Part shown: positions 16,974 to 47,263 of the stretch, piece after piece
Numbering within the stretch: position 1 is the stretch's first letter
Layout: each line of letters starts with the position of its first letter
Assembly (NCBI GenBank): GCA_016788585.1
Contig: JAEURP010000002.1
Coordinates: 1-64,000, forward strand
Length of the DNA: 64,000 nt
Source of the DNA: Chthonomonas sp.
GTDB lineage: Bacteria > Armatimonadota > Fimbriimonadia > Fimbriimonadales > Fimbriimonadaceae
Reading direction: 5' to 3'
Notes under the pieces: model-generated
Told to the model about the DNA's origin: nothing
The model's input: the letters and a program-made list of their open reading frames with translations, nothing else
Database searches by the model: none
Program-made: the position numbers and the translations under genes

Positions 16974-18257
16974 TCACTCATCTACATTGCCGAAGTTTGA
17001 AATGACGACATCTATATCAGCCGCGTCAACTTCCGTACTTCCATCAACATCGGCGTCATTATCGCCAACCGCGCCAAAATCCGCGATCGCCGCATCGATA
17101 TCAGCGGCATCTACTTCGCCCGAATGATCGATATCGCCATTCTGAAGCACAATTTCCAAGTCCTCGATCGGTCCCTCATCCAGATCCACAGATTCTGATT
17201 GTTTCAAACCTGCTCGCATGTCAAACTTCAGAGTCACCCATCCTTCCGCGGTCGGGCTCACCCCAAAATTTCCGGAGGAGTCGAGTGTATCAGTTAGCGT
17301 TTCGATCAATTCGTCATCTTGCCAGACCTCGACGGTCACCTCGACGCCATTAAGAGATCCACTGAAATCATTAAGTGTTATCGTGCCCGATACTGTGGGA
17401 GAGGGCTGGCCAACCTGCATTACGGCATTCTCAGCGCTCCAATGAAGTCCATCACCATCGTACAGTCCGCCAATAACCCCCAAGTTCCCGTAGTACATTC
17501 CGGCTGGGCTGCTGCCCCACTGCCATTTTGAGTGGAGGTCCGTCCGACTCTGTCCAGGAAGAATAGTCTTGCCAAACCAGTCTCCAAGAAAGTCAAGAAA
17601 CGTCAATTGATATTCTGGAATTGCCCCAGGATAACTTATCCCAAACCCAGCGACATACCATGAAGATGTTACGATGGGCAGAGCACCGTTGTTGGTCAGA
17701 GTTACTGAGGCTTCCGTTTGATCAAGCGTTTGAAGTAACGGGTTTGAGAAGCTCGCAACAAGTTGAACATCGAATCCCTGAACCACATGTAGCTGAAAAT
17801 CGATCAGAGCCAACGAGTCGTTTGCCGTTGGAGTATCTCCTCCAGAAATCGCAACCTGAAAATCATACACTCCAGGTGCAACCGGTCCGGCGAACTCACC
17901 GATGCGGTTTACCAATGCACCGAAGTACCAGGTCAGATTTCCGACAAGTTCATCGCCAAGCACATAATCTCCCTGCCCCCAGTTGCCGTTCGTAAATCCG
18001 TAGTAACTGAAGTGTTGGTTAAGGTCGATGTCGCTGTCCCAATTGGTTCCGGGGAGCACCTCGACGTTGTTAATGTAGAGGGGATCCTCCTCAGCGCTCC
18101 GCTCCAGCACCACGCCAAAGTTCGTGCTCGAATAGCTGATGTTTGATGTGTCGATAGGAGCCGAGTGAATCGTGCCGTTGAACGGCGTGAGGACGTATGG
18201 GTAGGCCGATGTGCCGAGGGCAAAGCCCATCGCCGAAAGTAGGCATTTGAGTCGCAT
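16974..18257 (-). CDS. Secreted protein with a C-terminal dockerin-like tandem Asp-rich module
   Basis: A 427-residue protein with a short signal peptide (MRLKCLLSAMGFALGTSAYP). The body of about 340 residues is beta-rich with many Gly, Trp and Asn and is not recognised. The last 55 residues hold two calcium-loop-like repeats: NGDIDHSGEVDAADID...FG and DVDGSTEVDAADIDVVISNFG. These resemble dockerin or thrombospondin-3 type loops. The same tail is found on three other proteins in this window. The gene is divergent from a winged-helix/TPR regulator across a perfect palindrome. Function unknown. Confidence 0.82.
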   Translation of the reverse strand: MRLKCLLSAMGFALGTSAYPYVLTPFNGTIHSAPIDTSNISYSSTNFGVVLERSAEEDPLYINNVEVLPGTNWDSDIDLNQHFSYYGFTNGNWGQGDYVLGDELVGNLTWYFGALVNRIGEFAGPVAPGVYDFQVAISGGDTPTANDSLALIDFQLHVVQGFDVQLVASFSNPLLQTLDQTEASVTLTNNGALPIVTSSWYVAGFGISYPGAIPEYQLTFLDFLGDWFGKTILPGQSRTDLHSKWQWGSSPAGMYYGNLGVIGGLYDGDGLHWSAENAVMQVGQPSPTVSGTITLNDFSGSLNGVEVTVEVWQDDELIETLTDTLDSSGNFGVSPTAEGWVTLKFDMRAGLKQSESVDLDEGPIEDLEIVLQNGDIDHSGEVDAADIDAAIADFGAVGDNDADVDGSTEVDAADIDVVISNFGNVDE

Positions 18258-31993: not shown

Positions 31994-33058
31994 TTATTGA
32001 TCGAATTGACCAAAGTTAGCGATGACGATGTCGATATCGGAGGCGTCCACTTCACCAGAAACATCGGTGTCGGCGTGGATGTTTCCCGTGCCACCCGGCC
32101 AGGTTTGGCCAAAGTTGAAGATGACATCGTCGATGTCTGCTGCATCTACTTCGCCGCTCCCATCCGTGTCGCCATTGGCCATCGCAATGGTCCCTGTGGC
32201 CTGACCCGTTCCGGTCAGATTAATCGTTGTGGTTTGCTTCAGGAATGAAGAGCCGTCCCAATGGATGCTGGCTGCACCGGTAAATGTTGCGCCGACGTTA
32301 ATGCTGAAGGCGGTGGATGGACCGGTTGCATGAACCGTTCCTGAGCCGATGGTGTTTGTGCCTTGCATGACGGTGTAGTTGATCGCCCGTCCGAGCCCAG
32401 ATCCAAAGGTGACCGTGTCGTTTAATTGAAGGCTTCCGGTAATCGTTTGGGCGGGACCGATAATCTGAATGTTGTCGAAGCCGAGCGATGCTGTCACGCT
32501 GGAACCATTGCTCGATGGGCTGCCAACTTGATGCCGGAACATGAAGCGGAAAACGCCAGCCAAGGCGGTTGGATAGTCATTCTCGCCCCCCACGATTGTA
32601 ATATCGCTCGGACCGATAGGGAAATCGTAGGTAGTCCAACCTGATCCGGCCGGGACGGACTTTGCAACAGTTGAAGTCCACTCAGCCCCCATGTTGTCGA
32701 AAATGACCAACCGCATCGAGAGATTTGGACCGCTAAAGCTCTTAAGGGAGACCCTTACGTGAGTTGCGCCTATAGCAAGGAAGTCTCCAACATATCGAGC
32801 CTCTTCGACAAATGCCGCCATTTTTGGAGGATAGGACCCGCCACCACTGTTTATGCGAAGGTACGGGTCTAAGGGGCCACTTACGCCACCATCAGGCATG
32901 GCGGAAATCCCGTTGCCGCCCTGGCCATTGGTCCAACCATTGGTCAAGCCATTTGAAAAGGTATCGACTGTAAAAAGGTCAGCGGCTTCTGAACTGATCG
33001 CGGTCAGAATAAGAGTGGTAAGGAGCGCTGTTCGCTGACATAAGGCCATGGGTCGCAT
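31994..33058 (-). CDS. Secreted protein with a dockerin-like C-terminal tandem module
   Basis: A 354-residue protein. ATG 33058 gives a signal peptide (MRPMALCQRTALLTTLILTAI, then SSEAADL). The body is a jellyroll-like lectin or carbohydrate-binding type with LTNGWTNGQGGNGISAMPDGG and FDNIQII, as in laminin-G-like folds. The C-terminus has two Asp-rich repeats: NGDTDGSGEVDAADIDDVI, NFG; then DTDVSGEVDASDIDIVIANFG. It shares this tail with the proteins at 16974, 40916 and 45890. Likely extracellular; ligand unknown. Confidence 0.82.
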   Translation of the reverse strand: MRPMALCQRTALLTTLILTAISSEAADLFTVDTFSNGLTNGWTNGQGGNGISAMPDGGVSGPLDPYLRINSGGGSYPPKMAAFVEEARYVGDFLAIGATHVRVSLKSFSGPNLSMRLVIFDNMGAEWTSTVAKSVPAGSGWTTYDFPIGPSDITIVGGENDYPTALAGVFRFMFRHQVGSPSSNGSSVTASLGFDNIQIIGPAQTITGSLQLNDTVTFGSGLGRAINYTVMQGTNTIGSGTVHATGPSTAFSINVGATFTGAASIHWDGSSFLKQTTTINLTGTGQATGTIAMANGDTDGSGEVDAADIDDVIFNFGQTWPGGTGNIHADTDVSGEVDASDIDIVIANFGQFDQ

Positions 33059-40915: not shown

Positions 40916-42172
40916 GTGCGTCGCCAGTTGTTTGTTCTTTCGCTGTTGGGCCTTTGCGTATCTCCGGCCCACGCATTAATCCGTCGGATCGATGTTGCGG
41001 ACTCACAGTATCAAGCCCTCGCGGCTAATATTCCGCTTGCCTGGATTCAGTATTCGACCACCGCGAACCCCGTTAGCGGGGCTCTCATCGGTGACAAGTT
41101 CATCTTGTCAGCAGCGCACACGCAGACAACGGGGACGCATACCATAAAGCTTGCTGGCGAAACTTACACGATCGTCGCTTGGGTGCGACATCCCAGTTAC
41201 TCAGGTTCCAATATTCTAGGCGGATTCGACTTCTCGGTGGCCCGTCTTGACCGACGGGTGTTGAACATTGCTCCTTTGCCGGTACGTTCGGCCGCGGTTC
41301 CCAGTCAAACCCCAATCAAGATTTTTGGAATGGGCGTAACAGGTTTAGGTAATGGTACGGGGTACGTCTACCCTTGGAGCCCGATCCCCGCGAGTTGGCC
41401 CTTGCGTGGAGCGACAAATCTTGTCGATGTGGATACCACCTTGCCAAACATCTTCATGACGGACTTCGACAAGCCAGACGGAACGACAAACTCTCTCTCT
41501 ACCCTTGGCTCGTCTGCCCAATCGACTTCAACCGAGGGACAACTCATTTGGGGCGATAGCGGCGGTCCAGTTACCATGAACGTTAGCGGGCAAGAACAAA
41601 TTGTCGCGGTCAATTCCGCTTTGAGTAACTACAACGGGAACTCAAGTACGGGCGACTTTGGCGATCTCTCCATCTTCGCGCGGGTTTCAACGGCCTATTC
41701 TTGGATCATGTCAAACGCCTGGGAAGCGGGTCGAGTAGCAGGCAAGATCAACCTGGCCGACTTTATTGGATCGCCGATGTTGCGAACTGCCACAATTGAA
41801 CTTAGGAATGTTGGCAGCACTACAGCAATCGAGACCTTCACGGTCCCATTGGCTGTTGATTCCAGCTTCTCATTCGTCACGCCGCGTCGTGGTGCCACCG
41901 ATATCAAGTTCACGATTCCTGGTTTTTGTTCGCGTGTCCTTTCGAATGTAATGATCAGCGATACCGCGCCTGGGAACCTCAATGTGCTACTGCCTAATGG
42001 CGACCCCGATCAGAGCCAAGAAGTCGATGCGTCTGACATAGATCTGGTCATTTCAAACTTCGGCTCGCTTACGACCTCGGCAACCTCAGGGGATCTCAAT
42101 GGGTCTGGTGAAGTTGACGCCTCGGACATCGATGTCTGCATCGGCAACTTCGGACAAACTGGTCAACCCTAG
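40916..42172 (+). CDS. Secreted trypsin-like serine protease with a dockerin-like tail
   Basis: A 418-residue protein. The signal peptide is MRRQLFVLSLLGLCVSPAHA. The chymotrypsin-fold triad is visible: His 68 (LSAAHT), Asp 105 (GGFDFSVARL) and Ser 215 (GDSGGPV). After residue 265 comes a beta-rich linker, then two Asp-rich repeats: NGDPDQSQEVDASDIDLVI, SNFG; then DLNGSGEVDASDIDVCIGNFG. The stop shares four bases (CTAG) with that of the convergent large barrel gene. GTG 40916 is the start. Secreted protein processing is a plausible role. Confidence 0.9.
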   Translation: MRRQLFVLSLLGLCVSPAHALIRRIDVADSQYQALAANIPLAWIQYSTTANPVSGALIGDKFILSAAHTQTTGTHTIKLAGETYTIVAWVRHPSYSGSNILGGFDFSVARLDRRVLNIAPLPVRSAAVPSQTPIKIFGMGVTGLGNGTGYVYPWSPIPASWPLRGATNLVDVDTTLPNIFMTDFDKPDGTTNSLSTLGSSAQSTSTEGQLIWGDSGGPVTMNVSGQEQIVAVNSALSNYNGNSSTGDFGDLSIFARVSTAYSWIMSNAWEAGRVAGKINLADFIGSPMLRTATIELRNVGSTTAIETFTVPLAVDSSFSFVTPRRGATDIKFTIPGFCSRVLSNVMISDTAPGNLNVLLPNGDPDQSQEVDASDIDLVISNFGSLTTSATSGDLNGSGEVDASDIDVCIGNFGQTGQP

Positions 42173-45100
42173 AACCGGAGTTGGTACTCCATTCTTAGGG
42201 TCCAGTTGTCTCGGTTGACATTGGACTCCCGGTGTCCTGCCCAACTGACATTTCCAACGTTCAGATTCAAGAGCTGATTAGGACCAGGACGCTGACTAAA
42301 CTCTAAGCCATAACGGTGCATGGTTCGGCGCAGGCCATTGATGTCAGTCTGCTCGAGTCCGTAACTAAGTCGGATAGGGGACGGGTTCCTCGCGTTGAGT
42401 GTCAGGTTCACCGACGCGATTCTGGATAGCTGCCGCGTGTCGTCGTTGATGCGCTCTTCCCAGGCTGCGCCAAACAGGGTGTTGGCCTTTTCGCTACGTT
42501 GCTGGAGCCGATAGGCGACCGTTCGCGTGGGTTGTACGATCGTGCCGAGCAACGCATCTCCCCGAGGCTGTTCGGGATAGGTTTGGGTTTGGAAAGTGAG
42601 ATCGAAACCAGGAATGTAGCGAGCGGTCACAGAGACATTGCGAATCATGTAAGCCTTATCCCAAGGCATTTGGCGCGACTTGATCATGGCGTCAAAGCTC
42701 AGCTTGCGCGAATCATCCTTCGGAGTCGAGAAGCGATAGGTGCGGTCGATGGCTCGGCGGCCGTTCGTGTGGACTTGGCTCGCGTAGTCATAACCTAAGC
42801 TGAGGTCGCCAATGCGCAATCCTACAGACCCTGTTTGGTTTTCACGTTGCCAAAGGTTGTAGTCCCGAATCGTATCAGAACCAATGGCGAATCGAAAGTC
42901 CTTGATGAAGCCCAGTTGGATTGGCTTGCTGGTTCCGAGTTTGAAGTTGCCCGTCGACCGGTCTCGTTCTTGCCCCCAGGCTTGGTGGGTGTAATTTGCT
43001 CCGCCAAAGTCGATGCCACCAAATGTGCCACCAGTAAGGCTCATGTTGGAGTTCATCGTATCATTGAGACCCAACTCACGGGCGTAGCCATACGTGAACT
43101 TAACGCCACCGCCGAGGTTGATCCAGAAGCCATAGTTCCGGCGGCTCTCATTAGGGCGGTCGCTATGTGTCCGGCGGATATTTACGTCGGTTACGCTTAC
43201 GCCTGTTCGGGCGTTGAACCCGGTGCTAAGCGTATGGGCGCTAATCGTCTCGGTGTTGCCGTCGCCGTATTCCGTGCGCGTTTGCTCGGTTCGAACGTTT
43301 GTATTAGTCGCCAACACGGCTTCTGCACTGAGCGAATTGCGCGTGCTGTCTGGGCTTGTCGCGGTCGTTCCGCCATTTGAAATCACTTCTCGCTCAAATC
43401 GCACGGCGCCAAAATTGCTGAAATTGCGCGAGAGCAACAACCGGTCGATTGATTGATCGAGAAGCAGTGCCTCTGGGTCGGTCAACGAGTTACCGTACTT
43501 GTACCACTGGAGTTTCGTATCCTTGTCGATGTCCCAAGTGAGTAAGGACTCGGCAATGGACCGCTTCTGATCAAGTGAGGCATTATTCGCCTCCATTCGG
43601 TTCATGCGGACATTGAGGCCCCGCATGAGCATGACGTTAACCAGCAATTGCCTTTGTTCTTGCCCAATCATCTGTCCCAAGAGTTCTCGCTCTGGGTCGA
43701 CAAGTGTGGCGACATTGAAGTAACTTGCGTCGACCTTTCGCTCGGAATAAGCGAGTTCAAGTCTCGGGTCTTGGATTCTCAAGCTCCTTCTGCTCGCGCT
43801 GGCATCGCCAACCTGTGCTGCCATTGAGTTGAACTCCAAGGACCTTCCGGCTCCCCAAGACGTAGAGAACGTGGTGTCGGTTTTTTCTAGACCAGGAGTG
43901 CTACCAAGGCGCTCCCGCTCAAAGCCCATCAGCGAGCTCAATTCGACCAAATTTTCGCCCAGAGTTTGGTGCCGGTAGCTTAGCTTGGTGCGGCCCCAGT
44001 CTAGGGTGCCAGAGACCAGACGCCCTGAGTCTTGCGAGCCCTCCAACTGCAGGTCCGATACGCTTAGTCCAATTCCTTTGCCCGGCGAGAAACTCAACCG
44101 CTGCGAAGTTCTCGTCAAGCCCGATGGCCGAGTAAACCAGTGGCGATCCTCGCCCTTTATCTGAATCCCTTTCGGCTGATACATGGCGGCAATGCGCGCC
44201 ATGTTGTCATTTTGCTCGGCTTCGCTCTGCCGCGCTGCACCATCGAAGCCCTGGTCGTTTCCAATGGACTGAAGTTCGTAGTTCCAATTTGCGCCGGTTA
44301 CGGTCAAGTTATTCGCGGAGAATCCTAGCGTGCCGTTGGACATGTCACTTTGTCCATAACTGAGGGCGAATCCCTTTGTAGCCCATCCTAGATTCCATGC
44401 AGTTCGGCTGATGCCGCGCTCTCGGGCCAATTGGCCGCGATCTGCTTCGCGAAGACCCTCGAATTGGCCAAAGCCCTGGCCCACCTCTTGGCTCACGTAT
44501 GCCATCGTCAGCGTTCCGGTTTGGAAGCTCATGCGCATTCGCTGAACTGCGTTCCCGCCCTGATCGCTGACGTTGAAATCGGTGAGGCTAAACTTCGCGC
44601 CGCGTTGGTCGAAGTTCAGGCCAAAGCTATTCGTTCGAAGACCCCGCTCTTTTTCAAGCTGCTTTCGGTCAGACTCGCGAAGGTCGTTGAATCGGTTGAA
44701 CCCGGAATCGACCTCTCGTGAGGAATAGCTGAGGGACCAGCCTGTTCCAGCAATGCCATAAGATTGATTCGTGATAGAGTTGCCGCCTTCGCCAACAACT
44801 TGGTAGCTCTGGTTCAGTTTGAGCGAGCCGGCCATAATGTCCTTAAGGCTCAAACCCATGCGCTTCAATCCACGTTCTTTAGTGAACGCAGAGACCTCTT
44901 GATCACTGTATCCGCTGTCGGAGAAAGCGCTGAATCCCGTGAACTTGCGATCGATGGCCTGGTAGCTCAATGCGACTTTGCCGCCAAGGATATCGCCGCC
45001 TATTTCTTGAACAATGGCAGTGCCCGATTCTTGACCGCCTTCATCAAGACCTGAACTCTCGCCCATCAGCGACTGTGACTGCATGGTTTTGCGGCTCGAG

Positions 45101-45639
45101 TAGGCAAACATGCCGTTCATTCGGAGCGAGCCACCTGGAGTCAAGCCAAAGCTGGTTTTTAAACCATAGAGGTCACTCCGCATGACCTTGCCATTATCAC
45201 CTCGTTCGGCCATGCCAAGGCCCATCATCACGCTGGATTGGCCAAAACTCAGCTTCATGGTGTTCAAGCCATTGCCAAACTTAGAAGCGCTCGACCGGGC
45301 CTCGGCTGGGTCGTGACGATATGTGACTCGCAGGACTTGCCCCGGCTTGGTCGCGACTTTGAGAATTAGCATTCCGGTCGGGCAGTCCAAAGAGTAATCA
45401 TCGCCCAATCGAAGTTGTCGCCCCTCGAGGTTGACCGACTCACTGCCGCGTATCACACCCGCATTGCGGAGGGGAACCGTAGGGGTGCCATCTAGGCGGA
45501 TTAGGTCTGAGGCCGTAGTGCCTCCGACCACAGATAGCTTGGGAGTATCTTCTGTTGGCGTAGGAGATTCTTGCGCAACACCAAAAACCGGCATGGCACA
45601 GAGTAGCAATGCTGTATGGATCAGCCGTCTCCCCTGCAT
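42169..45639 (-). CDS. Large outer-membrane beta-barrel-like protein with repeated ERGL-type motif
   Basis: A 1156-residue protein. A signal peptide (LIHTALLLCAMPVFGVAQ) is followed by a small domain (about residues 45-110) with GDDYSLDCPTGMLILK, resembling the GxDYxxDxxxG strand pairs of SprA-like surface proteins. From 120 on it is a continuous array of amphipathic strands, with C-terminal LRMEYQLRF. A motif with FxxFxxLREaDRxqLxxERGLxR occurs near 310-335 and 386-412, and a degenerate form near 232-260. Later copies are more diverged. The role is unknown; an outer-membrane channel or assembly factor is likely. Confidence 0.72.
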   Translation of the reverse strand: MQGRRLIHTALLLCAMPVFGVAQESPTPTEDTPKLSVVGGTTASDLIRLDGTPTVPLRNAGVIRGSESVNLEGRQLRLGDDYSLDCPTGMLILKVATKPGQVLRVTYRHDPAEARSSASKFGNGLNTMKLSFGQSSVMMGLGMAERGDNGKVMRSDLYGLKTSFGLTPGGSLRMNGMFAYSSRKTMQSQSLMGESSGLDEGGQESGTAIVQEIGGDILGGKVALSYQAIDRKFTGFSAFSDSGYSDQEVSAFTKERGLKRMGLSLKDIMAGSLKLNQSYQVVGEGGNSITNQSYGIAGTGWSLSYSSREVDSGFNRFNDLRESDRKQLEKERGLRTNSFGLNFDQRGAKFSLTDFNVSDQGGNAVQRMRMSFQTGTLTMAYVSQEVGQGFGQFEGLREADRGQLARERGISRTAWNLGWATKGFALSYGQSDMSNGTLGFSANNLTVTGANWNYELQSIGNDQGFDGAARQSEAEQNDNMARIAAMYQPKGIQIKGEDRHWFTRPSGLTRTSQRLSFSPGKGIGLSVSDLQLEGSQDSGRLVSGTLDWGRTKLSYRHQTLGENLVELSSLMGFERERLGSTPGLEKTDTTFSTSWGAGRSLEFNSMAAQVGDASASRRSLRIQDPRLELAYSERKVDASYFNVATLVDPERELLGQMIGQEQRQLLVNVMLMRGLNVRMNRMEANNASLDQKRSIAESLLTWDIDKDTKLQWYKYGNSLTDPEALLLDQSIDRLLLSRNFSNFGAVRFEREVISNGGTTATSPDSTRNSLSAEAVLATNTNVRTEQTRTEYGDGNTETISAHTLSTGFNARTGVSVTDVNIRRTHSDRPNESRRNYGFWINLGGGVKFTYGYARELGLNDTMNSNMSLTGGTFGGIDFGGANYTHQAWGQERDRSTGNFKLGTSKPIQLGFIKDFRFAIGSDTIRDYNLWQRENQTGSVGLRIGDLSLGYDYASQVHTNGRRAIDRTYRFSTPKDDSRKLSFDAMIKSRQMPWDKAYMIRNVSVTARYIPGFDLTFQTQTYPEQPRGDALLGTIVQPTRTVAYRLQQRSEKANTLFGAAWEERINDDTRQLSRIASVNLTLNARNPSPIRLSYGLEQTDINGLRRTMHRYGLEFSQRPGPNQLLNLNVGNVSWAGHRESNVNRDNWTLRMEYQLRF

Positions 45640-45751
45640 GGATCTCCCTATCCCAATATTATAGGACGTTTCACGTTCAAAGTTGCTTCATTTCGTTAAG
45701 TTCTTCGCGAACTTACGGAATTTGGGCCTTTGGGTATCATATGGCCCACAC

Positions 45752-45827
45752 CCGGACGTAGCTCAATGGATAGAGCATCAGTCTTCGGAACTGAGGGTTG
45801 GGGGTTCGAATCCCTTCGTCCGGGCCA
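45752..45827 (+). tRNA. tRNA-Arg (anticodon TCG)
   Basis: A 76-base cloverleaf. Acceptor CCGGACG (45752-45758) pairs with CGTCCGG (45817-45823), followed by discriminator G and encoded CCA. The anticodon stem TCAGT/ACTGA encloses CTTCGGA with anticodon TCG at 45785-45787, reading CGA. A strong terminator follows 13 bases later. Confidence 0.95.
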
Positions 45828-45839
45828 TGATTCTGAGAT

Positions 45840-45875
45840 AAAAGCGGGGCGAAGTTTTTCGCCCCGCTTTTGTTT
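45840..45875. terminator. Bidirectional Rho-independent terminator
   Basis: A 14-base perfect stem: AAAAGCGGGGCGAA (45840-45853), loop GTTT, TTCGCCCCGCTTTT (45858-45871). T-runs flank it on both strands, so it can end the tRNA transcript and the minus-strand gene that finishes at 45890. Confidence 0.9.
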
Positions 45876-45889
45876 TCCAATCTCGACGC

Positions 45890-47263
45890 TTAGTCGTCGA
45901 TTCCGCCAAAGTTAGCGATAACGACGTCGATGTCGGCTGCGTCGACTTCATCAGACAGGTCCACGTCGCCATTGTTCGGTCCGACTCCCGTGCCGCCAAA
46001 GTTCGCGATAACGAGATCGATATCGGCGGCATCGACTTCGCCCGAGCCATCAGGATCGCCATTTTGCATGGGAACCTTGAACTCGAAGAGGCCGGTTTCG
46101 GTGAGATTGATATTCACTTTCTTCTTCAGCCATGAGCCGCCATCGATCACGAGTTGATATTCCCCGCGCACATCGTTCGGGAATCCAACGTTGATCTCAC
46201 CATCGGCATTCATGTTTGCCGTCCATGTGCTGACCGCATTGTTGGTGTTTCCATTGATTGGCACAAGTTCAAGCGAGAAAGGCACTGTTTGCGCTGCGCT
46301 TGGATTGACGACATCGCCAAGGACCGGGATCACTTGCATCGATCCATTCGGGAAGGCTCGAACCTTCATGTTATCCACCCAAGTGTCTTGAGCTGGGGTT
46401 TCAAGCGTAGGATTCAAGATGATCGTATTCAACTGACGGGCTGTGCCTGTTAGATTCGGGTTGATATCCCAGTACCCAAATAGTCGGCGGTCTACGTAAA
46501 ACTCGACTCGGCGAACATTGTAAACGATCGTAAACTTGTGCCAGCCATTTGTGCGGCGGTAGTCTGCACCCACCCCAAAGTAGGTCCAGCTTGGCGCCGT
46601 GATGCCACCCAGTTCCAGGGTAGTGGTGCCTGTGACAAAGCCGCTACCAGGAGCAACAGAAAGGATGCGTCCGGCATAGTGGTTTCCGATCGACTGACCC
46701 GAAGGATTAGCAGTTCCGAACCAACAGTTATTGACAAAGCCAGTACCAAAATTGGTCGTGAAGGCATTCCAGTTGCCCATCGTCACAATCTGGCTCACCG
46801 CAGAGAATGGATTAACGCCATCACCCTGACGCAGAGCCGTAAAGAACCGCTGGCTACCGATGCCATCGGTACCTGACGTTGGCACTCCAACTCCGCCGTA
46901 TTGATCATACATGTACTGGGTGAATACAAGGGTCTCGTCGTTGGTCTGTTGCCGTGTGAACAGGGCTCCGTAACTGATTCGGGGATTGCGAAGCGGGTCA
47001 CCGGTTGGGGCGCCAGACCGTCCAGGGATCTTGCACGAATACTGCCCTTCGAATACATGGTCGGTTGGCGAGGCGGATACGGTGGACGGAGATACTGCCG
47101 TCAAAGTGCCACTGACGGTGGTCGATGGCCAGTTTGCAAGGCTATTCGACTCAAAATTGTCGGCGAATAAGACTTCCGGAGTTAGGGAAGTTTGCGCAAA
47201 AGCGATGGATGCAGAAATGCCCGATAGCACGAAGGCCGTCGTGAGCTTAGTCATGGGTTGCAT
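45890..47263 (-). CDS. Secreted protein with a dockerin-like C-terminal tandem module
   Basis: A 457-residue protein. ATG 47263 has a GAGG site about nine bases upstream and gives the signal peptide MQPMTKLTTAFVLSGISASI. The first part (residues about 30-260) looks like a concanavalin-type laminin-G/LamG lectin fold (ADNFESNSLANWPSTTVSG; HKFTIVYNVRRVEFYVDRR). The C-terminus carries NGDPDGSGEVDAADIDLVIA, NFG and DVDLSDEVDAADIDVVIA, NFG. It matches the other three tails closely. Extracellular binding or adhesion is likely. Confidence 0.85.
   Translation of the reverse strand: MQPMTKLTTAFVLSGISASIAFAQTSLTPEVLFADNFESNSLANWPSTTVSGTLTAVSPSTVSASPTDHVFEGQYSCKIPGRSGAPTGDPLRNPRISYGALFTRQQTNDETLVFTQYMYDQYGGVGVPTSGTDGIGSQRFFTALRQGDGVNPFSAVSQIVTMGNWNAFTTNFGTGFVNNCWFGTANPSGQSIGNHYAGRILSVAPGSGFVTGTTTLELGGITAPSWTYFGVGADYRRTNGWHKFTIVYNVRRVEFYVDRRLFGYWDINPNLTGTARQLNTIILNPTLETPAQDTWVDNMKVRAFPNGSMQVIPVLGDVVNPSAAQTVPFSLELVPINGNTNNAVSTWTANMNADGEINVGFPNDVRGEYQLVIDGGSWLKKKVNINLTETGLFEFKVPMQNGDPDGSGEVDAADIDLVIANFGGTGVGPNNGDVDLSDEVDAADIDVVIANFGGIDD

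Follow-up and report, generated by a model that had tools for sequence, protein, structure and literature searches.

Why do four secreted proteins with unrelated bodies, encoded within a single 64 000-nt stretch of DNA (the window), end in the same pair of dockerin-like repeats, and to what might these repeats dock? The window comes from a Fimbriimonadaceae MAG (Armatimonadota; 2.38 Mb, 95% complete), labeled G000 below. All four frames are open over the coordinates listed here, with start codons that fit their ends, and all four carry two C-terminal repeats of the type D-x-[DN]-x-[ST]-x-E-V-D-A-x-D-I-D-x-x-I-x-x-F-G, two near-identical loops with 4–6 residues between the last Phe-Gly and the C-terminus. 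The original prediction had described the shared tail as these repeats alone; the repeats stood, but the tail proved to be about twice as long. Alignment of the protein ends gave a common part of ∼142–152 residues, in which an Ig-like domain (X domain) of ∼90 residues precedes, in all four proteins, a dockerin of 55–60 residues. Pfam scores for the dockerin of the window proteins are under the cut-off or close to it, so that without profiles only the repeats would catch the eye. The features are as follows (XDoc, X domain plus dockerin).

16974..18257, minus strand: secreted protein, body not recognized, with C-terminal XDoc-like tag
17142..17402, minus strand: X domain (Ig-like, ∼87 aa) of this tag, with a weak CarbopepD_reg_2 match
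16977..17141, minus strand: two-loop dockerin of the same protein, code DAADID / DAADID
31994..33058, minus strand: secreted protein with C-terminal XDoc-like tag; frame open up to 33088
32177..32452, minus strand: X domain of this tag
31997..32176, minus strand: two-loop dockerin of the same protein, code DAADID / DASDID
40916..42172, plus strand: secreted trypsin-like protein with C-terminal XDoc-like tag; orthologue with a different code in genome G112 (L268)
41726..41995, plus strand: X domain of this tag, structure modeled
41996..42169, plus strand: two-loop dockerin of the same protein, code DASDID / DASDID, structure modeled
45890..47263, minus strand: secreted protein, possible CBM/LamG-like body, with C-terminal XDoc-like tag; frame open up to 47320
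46064..46342, minus strand: X domain of this tag
45893..46063, minus strand: two-loop dockerin of the same protein, code DAADID / DAADID

The tail recurs in its own genome much more often than chance would allow. Searching with a profile built from the four tails gave 81 matches in G000, two of them to the X domain only; the other 79 are dockerin-bearing places (best E-value outside the window, 2.6e-45), and at 62 of these both domains are complete. With PF00404 alone we saw 39 places at E <= 0.001, 33 of which passed the curated cut-off, either alone or with neighbours in frame; several others fell below it, among them three of the four window proteins when scored as whole proteins. Nearly all tags end 0–4 residues before the stop codon (maximum 15). 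Of the tagged frames, 72 were long enough to be assessed, and 67 of these passed a crude, home-made signal-peptide rule; a similar rule was passed by 115 of 383 untagged genes.

The bodies that carry the tag are diverse. The 25 (of 69) Pfam families listed for the 72 tagged proteins include subtilases (7), matrixins (2), NHL (2), DUF642 (2) and singletons, with no glycoside hydrolase among them; the propellers are of NHL and WD40 type, and the tag is also found on a GDSL lipase, on a sorbosone dehydrogenase and on many unknown bodies. The trypsin-like protein found nothing when used as a query against the genome contigs. What had been proposed from the window, unrelated secreted proteins sharing a dockerin-like and putatively calcium-binding tag, holds for the genome.

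The tagged genes of the window are single, among largely housekeeping genes; elsewhere in the genome they occur in arrays (contig C27, 2–23 kb and 93–105 kb; C22, 53–57 kb; C18, 27–31 kb; C6, 12–16 kb). Because of this clustering, the one tag found outside the window in a 400-kb secretome sample gives a poor estimate of the tagged share of the secretome. Some contigs end inside near-identical tags (C20:14-190, C24:14-190, C13:24129-24386, C19:3-311), which means that assembly stops where a tag was recently duplicated and that the copy number may be underestimated. One full module (L020, C19:153150-153569) contains a single in-frame TAG and represents either a pseudogene or an assembly error.

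The tag resembles a known module rather than a new one: by sequence and by predicted fold it is homologous to the dyad of X-module and type II dockerin (XDoc) that anchors clostridial cellulosomes. A profile of the 62 complete copies, run against the PDB sequence set, matched XDoc dyads only at E <= 0.01: 2b59_B (the CipA X-module plus dockerin; E 2.6e-6), 3kcp_A (1.1e-5) and 4wi0_B (2.8e-5, matched across profile query positions 12–145), and also 5g5d_B, 4u3s_B and 5k39_B. The AlphaFold2 model of the window tag at 41726-42169 has a mean pLDDT of 94.3; with this model as query, Foldseek ranked XDoc chains first, and VIA-align superposed the top six cohesin-bound XDoc chains over both domains with Z 14.0–14.3 at 2.4–2.5 Å (137–139 of 148 residues), the next row that was not an XDoc having Z 7.6. 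In the 62 copies and in the model, the Ig-like X domain is packed directly N-terminal of the dockerin. The dockerin has tandem F-hand loops in which the ligand positions 1, 3, 5, 9 and 12 hold acidic or polar residues; Asp occupies positions 1 and 12 of both repeats in 62/62 copies, position 9 in 62/62 and position 3 in 56–57/62, and position 5 is mostly Ser.

The known dyads belong to clostridial scaffoldins (CipA/ScaA and CipB of C. thermocellum, ScaA of A. cellulolyticus; PDB 2b59, 3kcp, 5g5d, 5m0y, 4u3s, 4wi0), and the tag shares with them domain order, C-terminal site, paired F-hand loops, predicted fold (Z ∼14) and variability at known recognition positions. In C. clariflavum, however, type II dockerin proteins make up only 4 of 79 dockerin proteins (PMC4582956), sit on scaffoldins and bind cohesins, whereas the tags described here sit on diverse proteins, in 34–92 copies per genome and with no detectable cohesin. 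In being carried in many copies on many secreted proteins, the tag is like the type I dockerins (PF00404) of cellulosomal enzymes, which have species-typical recognition residues (PMC4582956). It differs from these in the preceding X domain and in having type II XDocs as its closest relatives of solved structure, and from type I cellulosomal systems in that the bodies seen in G000 are mostly peptidases, propellers and unknowns and that no cohesin scaffold was found. Non-cellulosomal cohesin/dockerin complexes, the proposed ‘planctosome’ of freshwater Planctomycetes (PMC6461901) and the complexes of Cloacimonadota (PMC8542988), likewise come from environmental diderms whose dockerins are carried by secreted peptidases and further proteins that are not cellulases, but those genomes encode recognizable cohesins and G000 does not.

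It had been suggested that the tail was peculiar to this lineage. Our profile search gave at least one module in 76 of 291 Armatimonadota genomes, and several families carry this two-domain tag in large numbers, so that specificity fails for the tag itself and holds for a residue code inside it, which is specific to species or genus. Forty-eight genomes were tag-rich (>=7 matches among at most 13 scored per genome); they fall in families f1 (some genera only), f3, f4, f5, f13 and f19. In eight fully searched genomes we counted 34, 35, 51, 62, 68, 71, 87 and 92 copies. Within the window's own family the occurrence of the tag appears, by profile search, to be patchy. A single tag in a different genus of this family (L317, G078:C323:1296-1778), with a code close to the G000 type (DAVDID/DALDID), may reflect horizontal transfer or misbinning. 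Among openly licensed papers, whose coverage is incomplete, we found none pairing dockerin with Fimbriimonas, or with Armatimonadetes and C-terminal.

At loop positions 9–14 and 16–18 nearly every copy of a genome carries the same residues, while genomes differ from one another (all genomes were MAGs, and tags from genomes other than G000 were mostly the best-scoring 5–20 per genome). The code is DAADID in G000, G113, G114 and the named relatives SJ46 and SJ800 (Fimbriimonadaceae MAGs); GSSDFD in G112, of the same genus as G000; IGDY/F in G145 and DSDDFD in G146, which differ in code yet share a genus; TLFDFG in G184 and most others read in f19, with close variants in G186 and G182; DLxDLN in G176; DDADLL in f3; and DIADYS in G109. 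In six genomes, identity at positions 10, 11, 13, 14 and 17 was 0.67–0.98 within a genome versus 0.07–0.22 between genomes; the ligand positions 1 and 12 were fixed in all genomes compared. The 86 X-domain columns had a mean identity of 0.31 within versus 0.25 between genomes, with a maximum difference of 0.21. Leave-one-out assignment of repeats to genomes was correct in 264/264 cases with the barcode positions versus 155/264 with the other loop positions, and profiles of repeat 2 assigned repeat 1 to the right genome in 132/132. Label shuffling gave at most 0.053 versus 0.707 observed.

A code nearly fixed within a genome and different between genomes is what is new here. All genomes have a hydrophobic residue at position 13, which may belong to the core. 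The duplet published as ‘11 and 12’ of type II dockerins corresponds to positions 10 and 11 in our numbering. That duplet sets the choice of type II cohesin (PMC5141474), and dockerin recognition residues have been placed at 10, 11, 17, 18 and 22 (PMC4582956); the code positions thus include known cohesin-contact positions, and published XDoc complexes suggest by analogy that they are exposed. The Leu-Phe pair of CipB is found at the same positions in the f19 code TLFDFG. One tagged frame of G000 (L068) departs from the code of its genome; about ten tagged proteins, several of them longer than 800 aa, have a coded dockerin and no recognizable X domain (among them L061, L062, L064, L066 and L067, on contigs C19, C6, C11, C2 and C8).

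Copies may be alike merely because they were copied recently. Some near-identical tails at contig ends (C20, C24, C13) are what recent expansion or gene conversion would leave, and a minority of tails may well be recent copies. Such copying would have left synonymous sites alike as well; in the 62 copies of G000, synonymous codons at the fixed code positions are near codon usage (for Ala-10, GCG 18, GCC 25, GCA 8 and GCT 10), and synonymous identity over all site pairs was 0.434 observed versus 0.391 expected in the dockerin and 0.326 versus 0.314 in the X domain. Synonymous sites are thus close to saturation, so that selection, not gene conversion, keeps the code, and conversion or recent duplication is rejected as the source of uniformity for the bulk of copies. 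The low identity of the X domains of the same copies argues in the same direction, and as a general explanation we hold recent copying to be very improbable. Orthologues tell of concerted change: in eight pairs between G000 and G112, one of them the trypsin-like protein of the window, bodies are 47–60% and X domains 24–42% identical, and the code differs in 8/8, being DAADID-type in G000 and GSSDFD-type in G112. Only 24 of 80 code positions match across these pairs, mostly because position 14 is Asp in both genomes.

What, then, reads the tag? To our knowledge, XDocs all dock to cohesins; with no cohesin found here, the analogy lacks its other half. The original remark that the window encodes no recognized cohesin can be extended to the whole 95% complete MAG: PF00963 had no match over threshold (best E 0.23, inside a tagged protein), and a phylum-specific profile built from 31 Armatimonadota cohesins gave nothing at E <= 1 in G000, G112, G113 or G114. 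A cohesin-bearing scaffoldin, as expected of a cellulosome, was likewise not found in G000 by search at the sequence level. PF00963 does find cohesins in 33 of the 291 Armatimonadota genomes, so that the test works in this phylum; among the 48 tag-rich genomes it finds none (expected 5.4; hypergeometric P 0.0018, a value that ignores relatedness). The 31-sequence profile gave strong matches in its positive control (G259), as expected, and in the other tag-rich genomes weak partial matches only (best E 0.008). Three genomes of family f35 (G240, G241 and G244) each encode a single short cohesin protein together with one or two XDoc-like modules, which may form a minimal cognate pair and could serve as a positive control.

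Other candidate receptors were considered. SLH porins are known from diderm bacteria with an S-layer-like tether. The only SLH domain of G000 (L318, C7:70-201) is N-terminal in a frame of 625 aa that looks like such a porin and not like a cohesin-SLH anchor, and an SLH anchor was rejected. Directly between two tagged genes of the window, at 42169-45639 on the minus strand, lies a gene for an exported protein of 1156 aa whose C-terminus (LRMEYQLRF) is like that of an outer-membrane barrel and which has no Pfam match. Neighbour genes were rejected as a source of the receptor, given the solitary position of the tagged genes of the window; nothing links this gene to the tag.

We favour, with fair though far from complete confidence, the reading that the module is a docking tag, dependent on calcium, whose carriers share one receptor; this receptor would co-evolve with the tags and would not be a recognizable cohesin. 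The same positions drifting together on dozens of unrelated proteins are what a shared binding partner would cause. The nearest competitor is a cellulosome-like, very diverged cohesin–dockerin system, its scaffold unrecognized in these genomes or hidden in the missing 5% of the MAG. Fold, sequence and loop positions of the tag are those of XDocs, and cohesins occur elsewhere in the phylum, in family f35 together with tags; set against this are the lack of PF00963 matches in the tag-rich genomes and the failure of the phylum-specific profile to give more than weak partial matches there, and we regard such a system as possible but doubtful.

A secretion or sorting signal recognized by export machinery, comparable in function to the C-terminal domain of T9SS rather than a ligand for surface docking, would account for the strictly C-terminal site and for an Ig-like domain ending many unrelated exported proteins, and a code common to the whole genome could equally stem from machinery that all carriers share. 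The tag is, however, a complete dyad of the XDoc kind, whose known role is docking, and TIGR04183 (the T9SS type A tail) has no match in G000 and at most 1–5 in other Armatimonadota genomes, which also rejects that domain as the identity of the tag. A sorting machine thus seems a less likely reader than a shared binding partner, and we think this explanation unlikely. PEP-CTERM was rejected as well, as the tails end in FGxxD(E/D/Q) with no hydrophobic helix. The likeness is that both mark the C-termini of many secreted proteins in the same genome; a PEP-CTERM consists of a short motif, hydrophobic helix and basic end, whereas the XDoc-like tag is predicted to be a folded, soluble dyad. At least 28 PEP-CTERM tails (47 candidates) occur in G000 alongside the tags, and no protein in the sampled stretches of this genome has both, which suggests two C-terminal tagging systems in one secretome; since PEP-CTERM occurs alike in tag-rich and tag-poor genomes, the idea that the tag replaces it was dropped. 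Equally improbable, in our judgment, is a module without any partner, self-contained or stabilizing the C-terminus, with a code that records intramolecular packing or dockerin–dockerin self-association. Packing of X and dockerin in known XDocs (PMC5141474) and the same code in both repeats, as in pseudo-symmetric self-packing, agree with it, but the X-domain columns, expected to co-vary in that case, are almost without a genome signature, and simple stabilization does not explain a joint change of code in many paralogues.

The favoured docking tag could work as follows. Tagged proteins would leave the cell by Sec export, judging by their signal peptides; the two F-hand loops would bind calcium and the dockerin would then fold, probably stabilized by the X domain, as in clostridial XDocs (PMC5141474). 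The helix faces of the dockerin, with positions 10, 11, 13, 14 and 17 of both repeats, would bind a single partner common to all tags and located outside the cytoplasm. This partner would most likely be a scaffold of the envelope or surface, and either a cohesin that has diverged beyond the reach of sequence profiles or a protein of different fold. Such a scaffold would hold proteases, propeller proteins, lipases and unknown bodies together, and, by analogy, the tag would sort or anchor its carriers at the surface; within a genome, almost every tag would change in step with the partner, so that each species or genus would come to have a code of its own. Of this picture, the analysis shows architecture, copy number, fold prediction, code and selection on the code; that calcium is bound, that a partner exists and where the proteins reside we infer.

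One could speculate further, and only tentatively, that several Armatimonadota families possess an XDoc-based surface assembly with a non-cohesin receptor, in which tags and receptor drift together into a private code for each species. When dockerins turn up outside cellulosomes, they usually receive the annotation of a dockerin domain and no further attention. In the present case DNA alone reveals selection on a recognition code that is genome-wide and species-specific, in genomes without a recognizable cohesin; it predicts an as yet unknown receptor, a way in which these bacteria may organize their secreted proteins, and docking pairs that would be naturally orthogonal.
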